Shown here: positions 285 to 21,276 of the stretch, piece by piece | Layout: each line of letters opens with the position of its first letter | Position numbering within the stretch: position 1 is the stretch's first letter | Virus record (IMG/VR): IMGVR_UViG_3300034375_008236 | Location: 1 to 21,299 of that record | DNA from: a virus | Direction: 5' to 3' (one strand) | Length of the DNA stretch: 21,299 bases | Made by a program: the position numbers and the translations under genes | The notes under the pieces: generated by a model | Databases searched by the model: none | Seen by the model: the letters and a program-made list of their open reading frames with translations, nothing else | Told to the model about the DNA's origin: nothing

Positions 285-1886
285 CTAAGGATGCTCGTAC
301 AGCCGCAGCGACACGGCGGGCGCGCCGTCCGCGTGGGTCGTGTCCTCGACAACGGCTAGCCTGTTCGACCACCCCAGGCCGGAATCGGTCAGAGTTACGA
401 CCGCGCCAGGGGTTAGCCACGCGGAGTCGTTGCTGATGTCGTAAGCGACAGAGAGTGACGGCAGGGACGCGCGGTGTGCCATCCACGACGCGATGCGGTG
501 GGCGGTGCCGTCGTCCCAAACCGCAGTCGCCTTGACGGGATCAGCGGGGCGTCGCCCATATCGATCCGCGCTGACCCGCAAGCGGTGCGACTCCACGGAG
601 TCTGGGTCGTCGGACAGCGTTGAGTCGCTTCCGGTCAGAACTACGCGCCTCGTCGGCGCGTTGGCCTTGGCATCCCACCCGTACAACACCTCGATTTCGT
701 TCCTGATGTCGTCGGCGTCGGATGCTGCCACGGCGGACGCGCGCGAGCAGTTTCTACCAGCCTCCAGCGCGGCCACCGCATCGGCGGCCACAGCGTCGGG
801 GCGCCAGAGTGAAAGGGACAGGCCGCGCGCAGTATTAGCCACCGAAACCGGCAACATCGGCAGGACGTGCTCGGACAGCCACTCCCACGGGCGCACGGGC
901 TCGTCAGGGCTGCGGACGATCGCAGCGTCGATCTTGTAGCCGTTGAGTAGCGGTAGAACCGCAAGCATTCGGCCCCAATCAACTTGGGCGGTCGAGTTTC
1001 GCAGGATGAACTCGACCACATCCCCCGCACCCCGGATCAGCGCGCCCGACGCATCGACGGCGCCGCCCGCAGACGCGCCCCAATCGACCCACATTTCGTC
1101 CCCTGGCGACCATCGGGGTGGGCTCCACGGCGACAGATCTGCCAGCGCCACGCGGCGGCCACGGAGATCGCTGTATTGGCTCAAGATCGACAGCGTGCCG
1201 CTTTGCCCGTTGTCGAAGTTCTCGATGTAAACCGACGTAGCAGCGACCGGGTGTGCGGCGACGCCCGCCGAAATCGTGCCACCTGCAACGTGGTTCAGCC
1301 CGAACGCAGGCGAGCCGAAGGCCGAGCCGTCGCCGCTGCCCGGCTTGCCGATTACCACCGGCAGATACTCGCCAGCGAAATCACCGTCCCAGGTCCACAC
1401 CGATCCGCTTGCGCCGAATCCCGGAACTCCGAGGATCTGCGCTTGTGGGTGCGTCGATCCGAGGTCGTCGCTGATGGACTGCCGAACGACGAACGTAAGC
1501 GGCTCGTCAATTGCGCCAAACTCTACGCCGTCAATGATTCCGTCGATCACGAGTTCTCGTCGGGACGAGCCGACCGCGTGCAGGTACAGCCGGGCGCGGG
1601 CGCCCTGTAGGATGTGCCCGTCCGACAGCATCCCGGTTGCATCCAGCAACCCCGCCAGGACAAGCGAGCAACTGGCGACCCGCTCTGATGGCGTCTGCGA
1701 GAACAGCGACAGGGCGCGGCGAGGCGGGGACACGTCGAGCGCGCCGTCGTAAGACACCGACGCGCCGAAGTCCCCGAACGGCAGATCGTGCAGCGTTGAC
1801 TCCGCAACGCGAACCGTCTGCCCGCCCCACTCGATTTCAAGTAGGTAGACGACAGGCCCCGCCGCTAGGTCGGACGGGAGTAGCAC
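285..1886 (-). CDS. Tail hub / tail-tip structural protein
   Basis: A 533-aa protein starting at GTG 1886, which shares one base with the TAG stop of the preceding 1078-aa tail gene (TAGTG overlap, so translation is probably coupled). It is beta-rich without a signal peptide or membrane segment. The N-terminus (Val-Tyr-Leu-Leu-Glu-Ile-Glu-Trp-Gly-Gly, from about residue 13) and the C-terminal half, with its Trp/Pro-rich strands and closing beta barrel-like stretch, resemble tail hub or upper-baseplate proteins of siphophages. Placement as the second gene after the tape measure agrees, since these genes usually encode distal tail and hub parts closing the tail tube. The function call rests on position and overall look, not on a diagnostic motif. 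It could instead be a host-binding tip protein. Confidence 0.6.
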   Translation of the reverse strand: MLLPSDLAAGPVVYLLEIEWGGQTVRVAESTLHDLPFGDFGASVSYDGALDVSPPRRALSLFSQTPSERVASCSLVLAGLLDATGMLSDGHILQGARARLYLHAVGSSRRELVIDGIIDGVEFGAIDEPLTFVVRQSISDDLGSTHPQAQILGVPGFGASGSVWTWDGDFAGEYLPVVIGKPGSGDGSAFGSPAFGLNHVAGGTISAGVAAHPVAATSVYIENFDNGQSGTLSILSQYSDLRGRRVALADLSPWSPPRWSPGDEMWVDWGASAGGAVDASGALIRGAGDVVEFILRNSTAQVDWGRMLAVLPLLNGYKIDAAIVRSPDEPVRPWEWLSEHVLPMLPVSVANTARGLSLSLWRPDAVAADAVAALEAGRNCSRASAVAASDADDIRNEIEVLYGWDAKANAPTRRVVLTGSDSTLSDDPDSVESHRLRVSADRYGRRPADPVKATAVWDDGTAHRIASWMAHRASLPSLSVAYDISNDSAWLTPGAVVTLTDSGLGWSNRLAVVEDTTHADGAPAVSLRLYEHP

Positions 1887-14792: not shown

Positions 14793-15701
14793 TCAGGCGT
14801 CGGTGGTGATCGACACCATGCGGTTCGCCTCCATGAGAGCGACCGCCGGGTAGTAGTGGACGGTGTAGGCGGTGGTGGCCGCCGTGCCGGTCCGGTCGAT
14901 CTCGATGATCGCGCGGACCGCGCCGGGGACCTGAACCACGCCGGACACGCCGGGGATGTTGCTCAGGTCCAGCTCGCTGTAGCCGAAGGCGCCGCGCGCG
15001 AACATCGCGCCCTGACGGTCGGCGCCCATGTTGGCCGTGGCGACCTGCGCCGAGCTGTAGAAGTTGACGTTGTGCCAGCTCCCGAGGAACCCGGGCGACT
15101 TGGCGCGCAGCATGTCGTCGGTCGGGGCCTGGAACTGCGCGGCGCCGCCCTCGCTGCGGAGCGAGGTCTGGAAGTCGCTAACCTGCGCCTGATGCAGCAC
15201 GCAGTCGAAGGGCGCCTCATTCAGGTCGTCCTGCAGCTCGAAGATCGCCGAGTAGATGTCGGTGACGGTCAGATCCGCGCCCGAGGTGCCCACGTTGGCG
15301 CCGGCCGAGGAGAACAGGCCGGTAACCAGCGTCGAGCGGGTGCGGGCGATGGCGGCCGCGGCGTCGTCGGCGATCAGGCCCTCGTTGTACTGACCCGGGC
15401 CGCCGGTCGCGCGGAACAGGTCCGTGAACTTGCGGACCAGCGCGTAGCGGGCGTGGGTGAGCTGGATCTGGTTGCTGGTCGGGTCGGTGGCCGAAACGTC
15501 GGCACCCTCGGCCGAAGACGCGAGGTCGTCGGTCAGCGTGACGGCGCCCATCTGCGAGACGGACGAACCGTTGCCGCCGGGGCCGACGTCGGTTCCGAGG
15601 GCGAACAGGTCGACCTGATCGCGGAGGTTGATGTGGAGGAGGCCGGTGGGGACCTCAGCGAGGCGCAGGTTGGCGCCGAAGCCGGAGTAATCGATGGTCA
15701 C
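14793..15701 (-). CDS. Major capsid protein (HK97 fold)
   Basis: A 302-aa protein starting at GTG 15701 with AGGGGTG six to seven bases upstream and ending at TGA 14795-14793. It lies directly after the scaffold gene. Residues 45-75 give an extended Gly/Ser/Asp-rich loop (E-loop region); a long helix rich in Ala (Ile-Ala-Asp-Asp-Ala-Ala-Ala-Ala-Ile-Ala-Arg, near 110-121) is the spine helix; residues 150-185 (Leu-Gln-Asp-Asp-Leu-Asn ... Val-Leu-His-Gln-Ala-Gln) fit the A domain, and the C-terminus ends in beta strands with Tyr-Tyr-Pro-Ala-Val-Ala-Leu. No N-terminal delta domain is obvious, consistent with a separately encoded scaffold. Hairpins on both sides suggest separate control of capsid mRNA. 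Confidence 0.88.
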   Translation of the reverse strand: MTIDYSGFGANLRLAEVPTGLLHINLRDQVDLFALGTDVGPGGNGSSVSQMGAVTLTDDLASSAEGADVSATDPTSNQIQLTHARYALVRKFTDLFRATGGPGQYNEGLIADDAAAAIARTRSTLVTGLFSSAGANVGTSGADLTVTDIYSAIFELQDDLNEAPFDCVLHQAQVSDFQTSLRSEGGAAQFQAPTDDMLRAKSPGFLGSWHNVNFYSSAQVATANMGADRQGAMFARGAFGYSELDLSNIPGVSGVVQVPGAVRAIIEIDRTGTAATTAYTVHYYPAVALMEANRMVSITTDA

Positions 15702-15755
15702 AGTTCACCCCTTGTAGGTGTCTGTGGCCCGCTGATTACGCCCTTATCGCTGGCG

Positions 15756-15775
15756 ACCCGGATTGCGGACCGGGT
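15756..15775 (-). other. Stem-loop in capsid leader
   Basis: ACCCGG and CCGGGT form a 6-bp stem with an 8-nt loop between the scaffold and capsid genes, about 55 bases before the capsid start. With the neighbouring 15783-15814 stem it makes a structured 5' leader. A role in mRNA processing or translation control is inference. Confidence 0.45.
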
Positions 15776-15782
15776 TATTGAT

Positions 15783-15814
15783 ACGCAAGGGTAGGCACAG
15801 CCGCTTCCTTGCGT
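15783..15814 (-). other. Stem-loop after scaffold stop
   Basis: ACGCAAGG and CCTTGCGT form a perfect 8-bp stem with a 16-nt loop, starting eight bases after the scaffold stop codon (15822-15824). It overlaps a possible capsid promoter. It may be a processing or attenuation site separating scaffold from capsid expression. Confidence 0.5.
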
Positions 15815-15817
15815 CAA
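15788..15817 (-). promoter_or_regulatory. Possible capsid promoter (weak)
   Basis: On the minus strand TTGACG (15817-15812, five of six consensus bases) and TACCCT (15793-15788, three of six) are separated by 18 bases, in the 120-bp gap before capsid. The -10 match is poor and the element overlaps a stem-loop, so this is only a candidate. Confidence 0.28.
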
Positions 15818-15821
15818 GCAA

Positions 15822-16496
15822 CTATCGCCTGGAGCCGTACTTCTTTCGCACGGCGTCCGGGTCCGCGTTCAACTGCGCCCAGAAGTCAGCGCCGCCGGGC
15901 GGGGCCGGAGCGGGCACGACCACCTTGCGGTCCTTCGGGACCTTCGGGGCTGCATCGTCGCCGTTGACGCCGGGGGGCGGCGGGGCCGCATCGGCGGGGG
16001 GCGCAGCCTCGCCCGGCTTGGGCTCCGCAGCGGGGGCCGGCGTGGCGACCTCGCCCGACGCAAACGGCTTGAGGTACGACCGCCCCTCGGCGGCCTCCGA
16101 CGCGAGCCAGTCGGCGAACGGCTTCGCCTCGCCGTCCTGCTGCGAGCGCTCATACTTCATCCACACGAAGTCCCGCATGTCCGCGTCGGTGATCCGCAGC
16201 GAGTCGCTAGCCAGCATCGCAAGATTGGCGGTCGCCCGATCCTTGTACGCCGCAAGCGACGACTCGGCCTTGGTGGCGCGGTCGCGCAGGTCGTCGACCT
16301 CGGACGCGGCGGCCTTGAATCCTTCGGCCGACTTGACGACCTCGGCGTGCTGGCCCTGCAGCGTCGTCAACTCACCGCGCACGGTGGTCAGTTCCTCGCG
16401 GGCGGTGGCAAGCGCGGCCTCCGCCTGCCGCTTCGCCTCGCGCACCCGCTCCAGTTCCTTACGCAGCCCCTCGGCAGCAGTAGCGTCGTCGCTCAT
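15822..16496 (-). CDS. Capsid scaffolding protein
   Basis: A 224-aa protein. ATG 16496 is preferred over an upstream in-frame start at 16562 because it follows the 118-aa gene stop by one base and has GGGGATG before it. Residues 8-90 form a long charged coiled coil (Leu-Arg-Lys-Glu-Leu-Glu heptads); 140-200 is an Ala/Pro-rich flexible linker; the C-terminus (about 203-224, Phe-Trp-Ala-Gln-Leu-Asn then Val-Arg-Lys-Lys-Tyr) is a small basic helix like those that dock scaffold to the inner capsid. It sits directly before capsid, the normal position. It guides procapsid assembly and then leaves; no protease domain is fused to it. Confidence 0.85.
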   Translation of the reverse strand: MSDDATAAEGLRKELERVREAKRQAEAALATAREELTTVRGELTTLQGQHAEVVKSAEGFKAAASEVDDLRDRATKAESSLAAYKDRATANLAMLASDSLRITDADMRDFVWMKYERSQQDGEAKPFADWLASEAAEGRSYLKPFASGEVATPAPAAEPKPGEAAPPADAAPPPPGVNGDDAAPKVPKDRKVVVPAPAPPGGADFWAQLNADPDAVRKKYGSRR

Positions 16497-16497
16497 T

Positions 16498-16854
16498 TCA
16501 TCCCCGTTCGTCGGCGGCATCCATCTGCCGCACGATCTTGTTCGCCCACGACCGGCCCGCATCGCCGCCCCAAAGCAGCCACGCGATCCGACCCTTGTCC
16601 GTGCTCTTGTTCTTCTCGTGCCGGGCGAAGAACGCCGACATCTGCCGCACGACCCGGGGCGATACGTTGCCGCCCTTCTTCAACTGCGACGCTCGGGCCA
16701 CCCCCGAGCCGATGCCCTGCCTTCCAGCCTCGCGGGTGGACAGACCACCCCTCTTGCTCTTGGGCGCGGCCTCGCGCATTCGCAAGCCGCGCTCCGCAGC
16801 CTCGCGCACGCCCTTCGGCGGGGCGAAGTCGATGTGGTCGTACTTAGCCGGCAT
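16498..16854 (-). CDS. Conserved phage head-module protein, unknown function
   Basis: A 118-aa protein from ATG 16854, overlapping the portal stop by 11 bp and ending one base before the scaffold start. It has a characteristic layout: N-terminal Ile-Asp-Phe-Ala-Pro-Pro-Lys-Gly-Val, a Gly/Lys-rich basic middle (Ile-Gly-Ser-Gly-Val-Ala-Arg-Ala), then a helix (Val-Val-Arg-Gln-Met-Ser-Ala-Phe-Phe-Ala-Arg-His-Glu) and Arg-Ile-Ala-Trp-Leu-Leu-Trp-Gly-Gly-Asp-Ala-Gly near the end. From memory this layout recurs in many phages near portal and capsid genes, sometimes beside or fused to prohead protease. No catalytic residues are evident, so a structural or assembly role is more likely than a protease. 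Confidence 0.75.
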   Translation of the reverse strand: MPAKYDHIDFAPPKGVREAAERGLRMREAAPKSKRGGLSTREAGRQGIGSGVARASQLKKGGNVSPRVVRQMSAFFARHEKNKSTDKGRIAWLLWGGDAGRSWANKIVRQMDAADERG

Positions 16855-18433
16855 CCGGCGGGCCGCCCGTCACCTGCCGCACGCGCTCTTGGCGTGCCTG
16901 ATCGTCCCACTTGGCGATCAGTGCTTCGGCCTGCGCCTCGTCGATGCCCAACGTCTCGGCGACGTTCCACAGCCGCGACGGGCTCACGCCCAGGTCATTG
17001 AGCGCGGCGATCCGGTCCTTCACGGCCTCGCGTTCCTCGCGGGACAGCGGTAGCCCGGGATAGGTCACCGACCAGCCGTCCTCGGGCAGCGACCAGCCGC
17101 CGGATCGGTTCAGCAGCGCCGCCGACTTCCGCAGCAACTCCTCGTCGCCACGCTGGAACGCCGGAGCCTGCCGCGCCTGCGACTCGCGCACAGCGGCACG
17201 GTCAAGTTCGATGGCGAACCCCGAGCGCTGGCCGCCGACCGACCGCGCCTCGGCGCCACCAGCAAGCCCCAACTCGGCCAGCAGGGAGTCAACGTATTCC
17301 TGGATCGCCATCTGCAGATTCGACGGGTCGCCGCCGGCCTGCCACTGTCCGAGCTGTCCGGTCTGCCCGCCGCGCGTCGAGAGCATCAGCAGGGACGCCG
17401 GATCCATCGCGATATGCCGCCCGACCGAAGAAGCGGGGTCGTCGGCCGGAACCGACTCCAGGCCGACCGGGTAGACGTTGACGCCGTACCGCTGAGGCCA
17501 CGACGCATCGAACAGCATGTGGTGCCAGAAGTGCCACGCTTCCGCGACGAGGTAACTAGCCTCGACGATCTCGCACCCCTCATAGGGCGAGAACAGCATC
17601 CCGCATCGCTCTAGGTGGTACATCTGCACCGGGATGAACGGCACGCCGTCGGCGTATCGCTCAAAGTAGTTCGCCCCGGATGCGCCGTCGTTGGCGTCAA
17701 GCTCCAGCGCCTCCGCAGTCTTATCGACCTGCTCGGCCTTCGGGCCCGACAGCAGCGCGCGCCAGTCGGCCATTTCCTCGCCCGACTGAGCCAGCAGAAC
17801 GCGGCGCTGGGGCTCGGCCGGGTCGGCGATGTCCCACACGTCCCAGGTCCACACCGGCTTCGGCGAGAACGACAGCCGCCGGGGCGTCGCAACTACAACG
17901 GCGGTCGGCTCGTCCGGCCGGTCCGCGGCCGACTCGACGTGAATGCAGGACAGCGGGACATTGGTAAACCGCAGCGACGCCGGGTTGCCCTCGACCACGT
18001 CAACGCGCCGGGCGCCATCGCGCACGAGGTTCACCGACCGCTGCAGCCGGCGGCCCATCTCCCACAAGCCGGCGTCGCCCACAAGCGAGGTGAAGGCGTC
18101 GATCTGGTCGCCCTCGACTCCGCACGCAGCGCGGCCCGCCTTGTCGTACAGCCGCGACATCTGCCGCGCGTAGGACGCTGCGAGGTTATGCGCCGTGCTC
18201 GGGTCGCCCATGACGCGGCGACGGGCCGACTTGCTTGCGTGCCCGAAGCGTCGGTCTAGACGCTCATTCAGGTCGCGCATCCACGCGCCCGACAGCAGGC
18301 GCTCACGGCGGCCCGCTTCGGCTCGGCGTTCATCGGCTGCAGGCCCACCCGGAAGGGGCGGCGCCATGCCCGGCGTGTAATCGATGTGCGTCGACACTCC
18401 GGGAATACTTGCAAGGCGCAAGCCGGGGCGCAA
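16844..18433 (-). CDS. Portal protein
   Basis: A portal-sized frame of 529 aa if TTG 18433 is used; GTG 18397 or ATG 18367 (507 aa) may be the true start, and none has a good ribosome site. The large alpha/beta body includes a His/Trp-rich segment (Ala-Trp-His-Phe-Trp-His-His), and residues from about 390 form a long helical region with Gly-Gly-Gln-Arg-Ser-Gly and Glu-Ser-Gln-Ala-Arg-Gln-Ala, typical of the wing/stem/crown of phage portals. The C-terminal 70 residues are helical. It follows terminase by one small gene and precedes the scaffold, as expected. The portal ring is the DNA entry channel and the docking site for terminase and the connector. Confidence 0.85.
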   Translation of the reverse strand: MRPGLRLASIPGVSTHIDYTPGMAPPLPGGPAADERRAEAGRRERLLSGAWMRDLNERLDRRFGHASKSARRRVMGDPSTAHNLAASYARQMSRLYDKAGRAACGVEGDQIDAFTSLVGDAGLWEMGRRLQRSVNLVRDGARRVDVVEGNPASLRFTNVPLSCIHVESAADRPDEPTAVVVATPRRLSFSPKPVWTWDVWDIADPAEPQRRVLLAQSGEEMADWRALLSGPKAEQVDKTAEALELDANDGASGANYFERYADGVPFIPVQMYHLERCGMLFSPYEGCEIVEASYLVAEAWHFWHHMLFDASWPQRYGVNVYPVGLESVPADDPASSVGRHIAMDPASLLMLSTRGGQTGQLGQWQAGGDPSNLQMAIQEYVDSLLAELGLAGGAEARSVGGQRSGFAIELDRAAVRESQARQAPAFQRGDEELLRKSAALLNRSGGWSLPEDGWSVTYPGLPLSREEREAVKDRIAALNDLGVSPSRLWNVAETLGIDEAQAEALIAKWDDQARQERVRQVTGGPPDAG

Positions 18434-18457: not shown

Positions 18458-18697
18458 CTAGGTCTTGACGGGCCTCGCCTGCAGGTCCGTCTCGACCCAA
18501 ACCTCGGCGTGGTCGTGCGGCTCGTCGGGGTTGTAGACCACCCGGAAGACGACGGCCCCGGACTCGTCCACGAAGTCGACCCCTAGATAGGGCTTGGTCG
18601 CCTGCGTCGCCGAGTCCCACAGCAGGACGGGCGGACGGGCGCCACCGTCGCGCCGGTTGTCGCGGATGGCGTTGGCGTTGACTGAAACGCGCTTCAT
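18458..18697 (-). CDS. Small conserved-type phage protein between terminase and portal
   Basis: A 79-aa protein from ATG 18697, which forms an ATGA overlap with the terminase stop. The N-terminal Val-Ser-Val-Asn-Ala-Asn-Ala-Ile-Arg-Asp-Asn-Arg-Arg, the central Pro-Val-Leu-Leu-Trp and the C-terminal Phe-Arg-Val-Val-Tyr-Asn-Pro-Asp ... Glu-Val-Trp-Val-Glu-Thr pattern recalls a small protein commonly found between terminase and portal in tailed phages (from memory, not searched). The predicted fold is a small beta domain. The biochemical function is unknown. Confidence 0.72.
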   Translation of the reverse strand: MKRVSVNANAIRDNRRDGGARPPVLLWDSATQATKPYLGVDFVDESGAVVFRVVYNPDEPHDHAEVWVETDLQARPVKT

Positions 18698-20124
18698 GCC
18701 CGGAACCTTAGCGCGGCGCTCGGCATGATGTCCTCAAGCTGCTCGCCCGGCCCGTATCGCAGCGAGTCAATCGCGTGCTTGCGGTCCTTGTCGTTGCCGA
18801 TGTTCGTGCCTTCCCAGCGACGCACGCACTCCAGCAGGGTCGCGCACTTGCGCTCGATGTACAGCGCGCCGTTGCCGAAGGCGTAGTTGACGACGCGCGT
18901 TCCCCACTCGACGGAGCCGGCGCCCTTCTTGGGCGTCTGGATCGCGCCGCGGGGCAGACGGAACTCGCGCTCAAACAGTTCGTTGACGCGCATTCCGGGG
19001 CTGTCCCCCTTGCCGCTGGTATTCACGTCGCCGACCCAGCGGTCGACCTGGGCCGGTGTCAGGCCGAACTTCGACAGCAGTTCGCGGAGGTGGCTGGCGT
19101 CGCGCTCAACCGTGGTCGCCGCCGTCGACTCGTACTCGCCGACCACCCACACCCGTCGGGGGCTCTGCGTCCAGACGTAGAGCAGCCAATATTCCGCCCC
19201 GGCTCGCTCGCCGTGGTCGCCCGCAAGGCCCACCCGCAAGTCAGCGCCCACGAGGTTGGGCAGCGAGGCGAACCCCTTGAAGTCGAAGACCTGGGACTTG
19301 CCGTCGAAGTTCGCCAGCCGGCGCGCGCCGCTGATGCCTTCCCACCCGCCCGTGGTGCGCTGCACGCGCTCCCACTCCAGATACACCGACATCTGCTCGG
19401 CGATGTCCTCGGCGGTCCGGTGGGGGCAGTCCTCGACGTTGAGTTGGATCACCGTCTGGGACCAGCCCGGATCGTGGTCGGCCTCGTAGCCGTCGGTTTT
19501 CTCCAGCTTGTGCCGGAGCCAGCGGAGGTCCTGCGAGTTGTCGATCGGGGTGAACGTAAGCCACACCGGACCACGACGGACGGCGACGCGGGACAGTGCC
19601 TCGCCCCAATGCGTCGCGCGCGGAGGCTCGTCCACCCAGAGCCAGTCATAGGTGCCCGAGGCGAGGGCGATCACCGACTGCTTGCCCGACTTCGGGACCA
19701 TCATCGAGCCGTTGGCGAGCGCCACCATCGAGCGGCCCCGGTACAGGTAGCCCTTGCCCGGAACGTACTTGCAAGCCTCGTGCAGCACGCCGCGAGGCTC
19801 GATCTCGTGCAGCTTCTCGCTGATCACGGGCCAGTGCTCTTGGACGATCCCGCAGACGATCAGGCCGGTCGTCGGCCCCGCCTCCACCTCGCGGAACGGG
19901 TGCCGGCCGATGGCGTGCGCCCATGCCTCGCCAGCGCCGCACCGAGACTTGCCCACTTGGTTCGCGGCTCGACACGCCCGCTTGCGCGACTGGTCCTCGT
20001 GAAACCGCCGCTGCCCCGGCGACATTCCGCCCCTACCCGGCTCGCCGTGCCAGTACCGTTCAAACGGGTCGTTGGCCGCCTCGGTTCGCTCGCGAATTGC
20101 TTGTAGGTGCGCAGCGGTCAGCAC
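18694..20124 (-). CDS. terL: Terminase large subunit
   Basis: A 476-aa packaging motor protein. Residues 53-60 (AANQVGKS) are the Walker A loop; 161-168 (WLWVDEPP) are Walker B with catalytic Glu166; Thr-Phe-Thr-Pro-Ile at 190-194 is the coupling motif. The nuclease domain follows: Asp295 in Gly-Ala-Asp-Leu-Arg, Asp366 in Trp-Val-Gly-Asp-Val, and Asp453 in His-Ala-Ile-Asp-Ser-Leu-Arg-Tyr, the usual metal-binding triad. It translocates DNA into the procapsid through the portal and cuts genome units. GTG 20124 is the only start before an in-frame TAG at 20152-20154, but there is no ribosome site; a TACCCT sequence ends six bases before the GTG, so a leaderless transcript is conceivable. No small subunit gene is adjacent. 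Confidence 0.96.
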   Translation of the reverse strand: MLTAAHLQAIRERTEAANDPFERYWHGEPGRGGMSPGQRRFHEDQSRKRACRAANQVGKSRCGAGEAWAHAIGRHPFREVEAGPTTGLIVCGIVQEHWPVISEKLHEIEPRGVLHEACKYVPGKGYLYRGRSMVALANGSMMVPKSGKQSVIALASGTYDWLWVDEPPRATHWGEALSRVAVRRGPVWLTFTPIDNSQDLRWLRHKLEKTDGYEADHDPGWSQTVIQLNVEDCPHRTAEDIAEQMSVYLEWERVQRTTGGWEGISGARRLANFDGKSQVFDFKGFASLPNLVGADLRVGLAGDHGERAGAEYWLLYVWTQSPRRVWVVGEYESTAATTVERDASHLRELLSKFGLTPAQVDRWVGDVNTSGKGDSPGMRVNELFEREFRLPRGAIQTPKKGAGSVEWGTRVVNYAFGNGALYIERKCATLLECVRRWEGTNIGNDKDRKHAIDSLRYGPGEQLEDIMPSAALRFRA

Positions 20125-20146
20125 GCGCGGAGGGTAGCACGTCCGG

Positions 20147-20198
20147 GTTGACTAAAGGCTGGCGCCTGATCCCAGGGTCAACTGGGCGGGATTAGTCA
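20147..20198. promoter_or_regulatory. Inverted repeats in divergent control region
   Basis: The left arm GTTGACTAA (20147-20155) is matched in reverse complement by GTCAAC (20177-20182) and TTAGTCA (20192-20198); CCCAG and CTGGG (20171-20186) make a further 5-bp stem between them. This lies in the 220-bp gap between terminase (minus) and the small plus-strand genes. It could be an operator for a regulator controlling both directions, or part of a packaging site. No strong minus-strand promoter was found here. Confidence 0.4.
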
Positions 20199-20221
20199 CA
20201 TTCGGGCCCGCGAAAAGCGTC

Positions 20222-20310
20222 GTGATTCCGCGCCTCTTGAAATTAGTTGGAAGAAAGTGCAGTCAGCGCCTTGTGCCCTCTGCGTTTCGTGTTACTATTT
20301 CATCACTGGC
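20222..20310 (+). repeat. 89-bp direct repeat copy 1 (promoter unit)
   Basis: First copy of a directly repeated element; its partner is at 20851-20939. Identical blocks are 20235-20258, a -35 block around 20270-20278, and 20288-20310, while the spacers between them differ. Overall length is the same in both copies. Confidence 0.85.
20271..20298 (+). promoter_or_regulatory. Promoter P1, extended -10 type
   Basis: TTGTGC (20271-20276) and TACTAT (20293-20298) are 16 bases apart, with TG one base before the -10 (20290-20291), giving an extended -10. A 24-bp block (20235-20258) upstream, AT-rich for this genome, could be an activator or UP-type site. Start of transcription is expected near 20305. 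It drives the 79-aa gene at 20345 and the coupled 85-aa gene. Confidence 0.72.
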
Positions 20311-20344
20311 GGCAAGGAAAGCCCCAGCAACCGGAGACGACACC

Positions 20345-20584
20345 ATGACCTTCGACGCCCCGTTCTTCAGCATCATCAACACCACCCTCACCGAGGACGG
20401 GGCCACCTTCACCGATGGCGGCGGCCGCACGGTCATCACCGAGGCCAACGGCGACAACATCGCCGTTTCCATCTTCGACGCGGCTCCGGGCCTGAACCCG
20501 GGCCGCATCCTGCGGACCTTCACCATCACTCACCACGACAACCTCCCCGCCGCCATCTTCGACGCCTTCGGGGAGGTCGCGTGA
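20345..20584 (+). CDS. Small unknown protein under promoter P1
   Basis: A 79-aa protein from ATG 20345 with GGAGA (20333-20337) seven bases upstream. It opens MTFDAPFFSIINTT, then predicted strands with Gly/Asp turns, Ile-Leu-Arg-Thr-Phe-Thr-Ile-Thr-His-His near residue 60, and a short C-terminal helix. It looks like a small alpha/beta soluble protein without a signal peptide or membrane segment. Its stop overlaps the next start as GTGA. It is divergent from the structural genes and preceded by a strong promoter, suggesting an early gene acting on the host or on regulation. No family is recognised. Confidence 0.75.
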   Translation: MTFDAPFFSIINTTLTEDGATFTDGGGRTVITEANGDNIAVSIFDAAPGLNPGRILRTFTITHHDNLPAAIFDAFGEVA

Positions 20585-20838
20585 GCGGCTCGCCCCTCGC
20601 GGGCCTGTGGTTCGACATCTTCAAGCACGAGCCAGGGATGCCCCACTACGACGCCGCGCGCTGGTTCCAGATCGAGGCGGCGCACTTCGTTGACCCCGAC
20701 ACAGGAGACGCGCTTGTGGGCGAACGTGAGGCCGTCGGGGCGCTTCTGGCGCTCGCCCGAGGGTTGCGTGACAAGTGCGCCGAGCAGCGTCGCCAGGGGC
20801 TTACCCCATGCGACACGCAGCGCGTGCCAACCGACTGA
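20581..20838 (+). CDS. Small unknown protein coupled to the P1 gene
   Basis: An 85-aa protein from GTG 20581, which overlaps the preceding stop as GTGA and has GGGAGG (20571-20576) four bases upstream. The longer in-frame extension to 20257 is rejected because it reads through the P1 promoter and the first gene in another frame. The sequence begins VSGSPLAGLWFDIFKHEPG, contains a helix (Ala-Arg-Trp-Phe-Gln-Ile-Glu-Ala-Ala-His-Phe) and then a longer helix with Cys near residue 68. No family is recognised. It is translated from the P1 message. Confidence 0.72.
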   Translation: MSGSPLAGLWFDIFKHEPGMPHYDAARWFQIEAAHFVDPDTGDALVGEREAVGALLALARGLRDKCAEQRRQGLTPCDTQRVPTD

Positions 20839-20850
20839 CCGAAAACCCCA

Positions 20851-20939
20851 GTGGTTCCGGGCGTCTTGAAATTAGTTGGAAGAAAGTTGCCGATTGCGCT
20901 TGTGCCCGTCTGATTCCGTGTTACTATTTCATCACTGGC
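20851..20939 (+). repeat. 89-bp direct repeat copy 2 (promoter unit)
   Basis: Second copy of the repeat, 629 bp downstream of the first. Perfect blocks at 20864-20887 and 20917-20939 flank a conserved -35 block; the sequences between blocks are mostly different although the distances are identical. Confidence 0.85.
20900..20927 (+). promoter_or_regulatory. Promoter P2, extended -10 type
   Basis: TTGTGC (20900-20905) and TACTAT (20922-20927), 16 bases apart, with TG at 20919-20920. The geometry is identical to P1, including the 12-base gap to the upstream 24-bp block. It sits 44 bases before the 101-aa gene. Confidence 0.72.
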
Positions 20940-20970
20940 CGGACGGAACCGGCCGAGGGAGACAGAGACA

Positions 20971-21276
20971 ATGAGCAACACCATCACCTTCGACCGCATG
21001 GACACCACCTACGGCGAGCAGTTCATCATGTACGGCGGCCGGGTCGTCGGCACCATCACCCGTAACCGCGCCGCCACCGAGACATTCGGCAACGAGGACA
21101 CGGTCGAGTCCTATACGGTCGAGATCAACGGCTGCCGACGCGACTTCAACGTCAACGGCCGCTTCTGGTACTTCGGGACCGGGTTCCACACCGAGCGGAA
21201 CGGCCACGACACCGCCCGCCGGGCGCACATGGCAGCGAAGGCCTGGGCCCGCACGAACCCCGCCGACGCGGCGTAG
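20971..21276 (+). CDS. Small unknown protein under promoter P2
   Basis: A 101-aa protein from ATG 20971, with GAGGGAG (20955-20961) about nine bases upstream, ending at TAG 21274-21276. It starts MSNTITFDRMDTTYGEQF, followed by strand-rich sequence (Val-Val-Gly-Thr-Ile-Thr-Arg; Tyr-Thr-Val-Glu-Ile-Asn-Gly; Phe-Trp-Tyr-Phe-Gly) and an Ala-rich C-terminal helix. The beta-sheet-plus-helix layout is common in small phage early proteins, but no family is recognised. It shares a promoter type, not clear sequence, with the 79-aa gene. Confidence 0.78.
   Translation: MSNTITFDRMDTTYGEQFIMYGGRVVGTITRNRAATETFGNEDTVESYTVEINGCRRDFNVNGRFWYFGTGFHTERNGHDTARRAHMAAKAWARTNPADAA

Follow-up and report, generated by a model that had tools for sequence, protein, structure and literature searches.

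Putative promoter-leader linkers of exchangeable small-gene cassettes in five related phage contigs

Two repeated units beside a terminase operon

The window, meaning the whole 21,299-bp stretch of DNA that was analyzed, is an IMG/VR virus record with a GC content of approximately 67% (AT content approximately 33% genome-wide). It contains a leftward structural operon in which PHROGs recognizes a terminase (18694-20124) and a tape measure protein. Three small genes lie at the right end of the window and are oriented rightward, divergently from the terminase operon. Two proteins presumed from gene order to be the portal and the capsid protein (14796-18433) match none of 50,697 phage records, and the terminase is only 23-25% identical to those of other phages. 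We therefore regard the window and the relatives described below as an unclassified group of tailed phages without close known relatives.

No Pfam or PHROG match was found for the first and second small genes. The third was assigned to no family, its weak match to DUF3592 being below the cut-off, and its structure is too uncertain for use. The genes and the predicted features of the two repeated units, designated A and B, are as follows.

20210..20234, + strand: semi-conserved upstream segment of unit A (CGAAAA..GTGATTCCG.GC.TC); 16 of 24 columns are invariant in the six type I units described below
20235..20258, + strand: type I upstream block of unit A, 24 bp, at about -70 to -47; identical to that of unit B
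20271..20276, + strand: -35 hexamer of unit A, TTGTGC; CTTG is invariant in type I units, and TTG in all nine units
20290..20298, + strand: extended -10 of unit A, TG-T-TACTAT, 16 bp from the -35, a spacing constant in nine units
20305, + strand: predicted transcription start (A) of unit A, 7 bp past the -10
20306..20327, + strand: predicted leader hairpin of unit A, CUGG(C)GGC...GCCCCAG; -10.3 kcal/mol for the first 28 nt
20345..20584, + strand: cassette gene 1 (79 aa); its ATG is 40 nt after the predicted transcription start
20581..20838, + strand: cassette gene 2 (85 aa), an open frame with a GTGA overlap with gene 1
20839..20863, + strand: semi-conserved upstream segment of unit B, from the alignment, directly after the stop codon of gene 2
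20864..20887, + strand: type I upstream block of unit B, from alignment with unit A
20900..20905, + strand: -35 hexamer of unit B, TTGTGC, from unit comparison
20919..20927, + strand: extended -10 of unit B, TG-T-TACTAT, from unit comparison
20934, + strand: transcription start (A) of unit B, predicted from the -10
20937..20954, + strand: predicted leader hairpin of unit B, GGCCGG-ACGGAA-CCGGCC; -13.4 kcal/mol, z -3.3, matched by 0 of 200 shuffles
20971..21276, + strand: cassette gene 3 (101 aa), an open reading frame

An ungapped comparison places the two 89-bp copies at 20222-20310 (unit A) and 20851-20939 (unit B), offset by 629 bp. They are identical over 24 bp of upstream sequence (20235-20258 and 20864-20887), 9 bp that include the -35 (20270-20278 and 20899-20907), and 23 bp that cover the extended -10 and the start region (20288-20310 and 20917-20939). 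Between these blocks, none of the 11 bases of spacer 1 agree, and a 9-bp stretch of spacer 2 contains seven differences. An earlier reading made from the sequence alone had described two such copies, with the 24-bp block, the -35, the 23-bp block, 18 spacer differences and equal distances, and this description is exact on re-alignment; counted from the alignment, the 18 differences correspond to approximately 76% identity over 89 bp. Similarity reaches approximately 25 bp further upstream (family D7, 85% over 48 nt). The window's longest exact direct repeat measures 24 nt, whereas the longest in 100 second-order Markov simulations of the window was 20 nt, and the rest of the top ten were 17. 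Because two independent blocks share one offset and the simulations fall short, the probability that the repeat arose by chance is negligible.

Nine units with a common core

Further units were sought by using a 22-mer of the upstream block, matched exactly, in the IMG/VR viral collection (2.9 million contigs). The 22-mer is found in exactly four other contigs (L003-L006), and the same four encode the terminase and the presumed capsid protein. Searches with the terminase and capsid proteins revealed no relatives besides these four contigs, which are approximately 92-98.6% identical in DNA sequence to the window over the shared part. No tRNAs were found in L003-L006, and no Rfam family in any of the five contigs. 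Seven further units are located to the right of the terminase in the relatives, giving a total of nine in five contigs that are fragmentary, are all close relatives and all end inside the cassette region. The expectation of more copies, one per small-gene cassette, was thus borne out. All five assemblies stop approximately 0.5-2.5 kb from the terminase start, as expected for a hypervariable, repeat-rich region.

Three types of unit can be distinguished by their upstream elements. Type I units, of which there are six, carry the upstream block of the window (CTTGAAATTAGTTGGAAGAAAGT). The two type II units have a terminator, GGCCCGCCCCGGCGGGCC-TTTGTCGTT, followed by CTCCACTATCTCAGAAAAGTTTTACGATTCCC, and the single type III unit has the upstream element CTCCAACTTTCTTCATTATTTCTTACGATTCCC. 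Every unit comprises a TTG, a 16-bp spacing between -35 and -10, and the pattern TGnTAnnnT. The start region always ends in ASTGGC and continues into a leader, with a start codon approximately 40 nt downstream of the predicted transcription start. Among the six type I units, all 23 columns of the block are invariant, whereas invariant columns number 0 of 11 for spacer 1 (mean pairwise identity 0.43) and 3 of 11 for spacer 2 (0.57); the distances are fixed. Because the block is invariant while the spacers vary, constraint on the blocks is needed. These data uphold the earlier proposal of a defined unit under selection, which would have been weakened by equal conservation of the spacers in relatives.

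A search for the block together with the -35 in genome contigs, as an indication of the host, gave no matches. An 18-mer of the block has seven matches in genomes or contigs of 26-48% GC, in which the rest of the unit is absent, and a relaxed pattern for the core matches eight extra viral contigs, none of which has homologous proteins or a full unit. Both sets of matches were attributed to chance.

The units are read as promoters because of the extended -10 (TGTTACTAT) and its conservation. In all nine, the TGn abuts the -10 hexamer, which has T and A at positions 1 and 2 and T at position 6. The TTG of the -35 is likewise universal, but the remainder of this hexamer (TTGTGC) is weak in comparison with TTGACA. 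For this reason, the promoters of the window were missed by a stricter consensus scan, which gave one match, in L006. Under general bacterial promoter rules, the core resembles a standard extended -10 promoter of the sigma-70 type.

Two other sequences are found between the terminase and unit A. At 20131-20141, and at the same place in L003-L006, AGGGTAGCACG is kept upstream of the terminase in all five contigs. On the opposite strand, its complement, CGTGCTACCCT, is similar to the extended -10 (CGTGTTACTAT) and precedes the GTG of the terminase by a few bases; it is a possible leaderless divergent promoter, although one without a clear -35. The segment at 20147-20199, which is also present in L004, contains the half-sites GTTGACTAA, GGTCAAC and ATTAGTCAC and is possibly an operator; the matching segment has a different sequence in L003, L005 and L006.

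Upstream elements and leader hairpins

The AT content at -62 to -43 averages 62-68% and is high in all three upstream types, compared with approximately 33% genome-wide. UP elements are A/T tracts at -59 to -38 that are bound by the alpha subunit of RNA polymerase, and the upstream elements of the units could act in this way, with no regulator involved. When compared with the UP consensus, type I units match at 10 of 14 positions, approximately 8 bp upstream of the standard register, and types II and III match at 9 of 14 near the standard register. However, the match is not significant when the register is left free (p = 0.11), and generic UP function needs no 23 invariant bases. We consider this refinement of the promoter reading possible, at less than even confidence.

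Alternatively, the type I block might be the operator of a sequence-specific class I activator, of phage or host origin, that switches type I cassettes together, whereas types II and III would answer other factors. The 23 invariant bp in six units include G positions and go beyond what generic AT-richness needs. Moreover, the block is centered at approximately -58, and class I activators use distances such as this. The cassette regions of L006 and L005 also encode small proteins with a strand-helix-helix prediction. However, neither a dyad (p approximately 0.15) nor a direct repeat (p approximately 0.06) is significant in the type I block, and the only candidate regulator in the region, a weak prediction, matches no family or fold significantly, shows no link to the block and is not seen in the window. 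This refinement is likewise offered tentatively. AT-richness fits a UP element, and the exact conservation of 23 bases better fits a specific protein, so the two readings carry about equal weight. As for the earlier suggestion of a site for an activator or a phage sigma factor, the defined unit stands, but a dedicated factor gains little from an ordinary sigma-70-type core, a block without significant symmetry, and three units with other upstream elements.

The type III upstream element contains ACTTTCTTC (L006, 1504-1512, - strand), which matches the type I block over 9 nt in inverted orientation. A match of 9 nt is attained in 42 of 3000 shuffles, and this one is regarded as no more than a lead. 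The cassette proteins encoded at 1633-1845 (- strand) of L006 and 420-824 (- strand) of L005 have a common C-terminal domain of approximately 60-70 residues (42% identity), which in L005 is preceded by another domain. The predicted strand-helix-helix order of this domain is possibly that of a ribbon-helix-helix DNA-binding fold, and the search for significant family or fold matches to the L006 protein gave none.

All nine leaders are predicted to fold into a 5' hairpin, within transcripts predicted to start with ASUGGC. The stem is GGCCGG/CCGGCC, GGCCGG/CUGGCC, GGCGGG/CCCGCC, or a longer CUGG-type form. Among eight leaders compared with shuffled sequences, six have z scores of approximately -2 to -3.5, and the hairpins of unit A (z -1.3) and of one L004 unit (L004a, z -0.7) have unremarkable stability. 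The fourth pair of the GGCCGG/CCGGCC stem changes from C-G to G-C in one unit each of L005 and L006 (L005b and L006c), which is a compensatory change. Hairpins at the 5' end slow mRNA decay in other systems, and we infer that the leader hairpin may protect the mRNA.

Exchange of cassettes and promoter segments

At the unit proximal to the terminase, the collinear sequence that accompanies the terminase ends, the linker is common, and a different first gene follows in each of the five contigs. In L004, a type I unit precedes a gene whose product begins MTIEIDHL, and in L006 this gene is preceded by the type III unit; the two copies are 88% identical over the gene and the end of the leader, and similarity starts in the leader. 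Later genes are also joined by common terminator-leader linkers, and terminator hairpins precede the type II units. The small proteins scanned from the cassettes have no significant family match.

The spacers show a corresponding mosaicism. Two similar copies 629 bp apart might suggest a recent tandem duplication inside the genome of the window, after which the spacers drifted freely. However, spacer 1 of unit A matches the L005 and L006 units at 10 of 11 positions and unit B at none, and spacer 2 of unit B is identical to that of L005 (11 of 11), so that alleles are shared across contigs; we give a duplication of this kind almost no credence. When the orthologous first units are compared across contigs, their upstream flanks, spacers and start regions are found in mixed combinations, and the four-gamete test fails for 75 of 136 informative site pairs. 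Over approximately 1.1 kb that ends with the final base of the block, at its 3' edge, the window and L004 differ by 1.8%; beyond this edge they differ at 19 of 55 positions, a drop in identity from approximately 98% to 65%. Given the shared spacer alleles, the four-gamete failures and the break with L004, recombination between units, with crossovers inside conserved blocks, is required, and private drift after duplication fails as an account. The sequence-only reading was thus correct in positing a constrained unit, but the spacers did more than drift in place: because their alleles turn up again, newly combined, in other contigs, much of the pattern is a product of recombination between units. 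That reading did not include the leader hairpin, the exchange of cassettes or the additional promoter types. Promoter segments themselves, besides genes, are exchanged between the viruses.

On the best reading, selection maintains the blocks, and recombination uses them as joints. The exact coincidence of the L004 break with the block's 3' edge, and the reassortment of segments on either side of blocks, might instead mean that the blocks are conserved mainly as joints, through homology or as a recombinase site, and not for transcription. This is improbable, because recombination alone does not call for fixed spacing relative to the -35, -10, start site and start codon, the breaks lie at several joints and not one, and the core is retained in types II and III, which lack the type I block. 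Chimeric assembly at short repeats could also mimic shuffling of genes and spacers, in that the five contigs end 0.5-2.5 kb from the terminase start, inside the region, and mixed populations are likely. However, the longest exact repeat in the window (24 nt) is shorter than the k-mers usual for final contigs, one consistent grammar is found in five contigs, and the four relatives come from four different metagenome ids. We therefore judge chimeras very unlikely. Beyond selection and exchange as joint functions of the blocks, a dedicated regulator might recognize the 23-bp block and switch on shuffled host-takeover or anti-defence genes, with the block as the preferred exchange joint for genes and promoter segments. 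This combination is rather unlikely; if true, regulation and gene acquisition would run through one sequence.

Several known systems resemble the units. Phage morons are small genes with their own promoter and terminator, inserted in phage genomes as autonomous units, and usually have unrelated promoters. The cassettes are similarly autonomous small-gene transcription units inside a phage genome, but many of them share one exchangeable linker family. Promoter early stem-loop (PeSL) elements of T4-like phages were reportedly described by Arbiol in 2010 and Comeau in 2014. According to one report, PeSLs are repeated promoter and stem-loop linkers between small genes in intensely shuffled regions, and mediate gene exchange between close relatives (PMC4503421). 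Like PeSLs, the units place a repeated promoter with a stem-loop between genes, and different genes occur at the same linker in close relatives. In contrast to PeSLs, their sequences are different, the phage group is unrelated and not T4-like, the hairpin with the compensatory change is in the 5' leader, apart from the terminators, and even segments within the promoter are reassorted by recombination. The units may thus work like PeSLs, but are not classed as such because the phage is not T4-like.

In archaeal viruses, one highly similar promoter precedes many small, dissimilar, otherwise unknown genes, for some of which early timing and an anti-defence function have been shown, and conserved promoters have been used to find early or anti-defence genes (PMC11065993). 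The units also place a similar promoter before dissimilar small genes, but the archaeal promoters are of the TATA/BRE kind, and for the cassette genes early timing and anti-defence roles are possibilities. The SAS/ESAS repeats of cluster K mycobacteriophages likewise precede genes of different families, and approximately half of the repeats have a second element upstream; SAS is a 13-bp sequence at the translation start, and ESAS consists of inverted repeats with little support for an RNA hairpin (PMC3203893). In contrast, the units described here contain a recognizable promoter and a predicted RNA hairpin, and the 13-bp SAS sequence at the start codon, GGGATAGGAGCCC, is absent from the leaders of all nine. 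Judged by sequence or phage type, the units are none of PeSL, archaeal-virus promoters or SAS/ESAS.

We consider it likely that sigma-70-type promoter-leader linkers carry exchangeable small-gene cassettes, and that each unit is a complete expression linker with upstream enhancement, 5' hairpin protection, and recombination within blocks. One linker would stand before each small gene or gene pair in the hypervariable region. From 5' to 3', its promoter would have an AT-rich element (approximately -70 to -45), a weak -35 and an extended -10. The transcribed part would follow, with a fixed initial sequence, a hairpin starting 2-4 nt from the mRNA 5' end, a Shine-Dalgarno sequence and a start codon. 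The extended -10 would be read by the housekeeping RNA polymerase of the host, whose alpha subunit, or else a bound activator, would let the upstream element boost the weak-35 promoter; the 5' hairpin would guard the mRNA. Because each unit is a complete expression linker, a gene landing behind one would be expressed with its set. Because the linkers are alike, homologous recombination within conserved blocks could swap downstream genes and promoter segments.

This arrangement probably lets newly acquired genes be switched on correctly at once. In these five related viruses, new small phage genes could thus be brought under control immediately by landing behind a common promoter-leader linker. 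Almost no small genes are annotated in this group, and the linker may help to locate genes that are likely to act early or against host defences.
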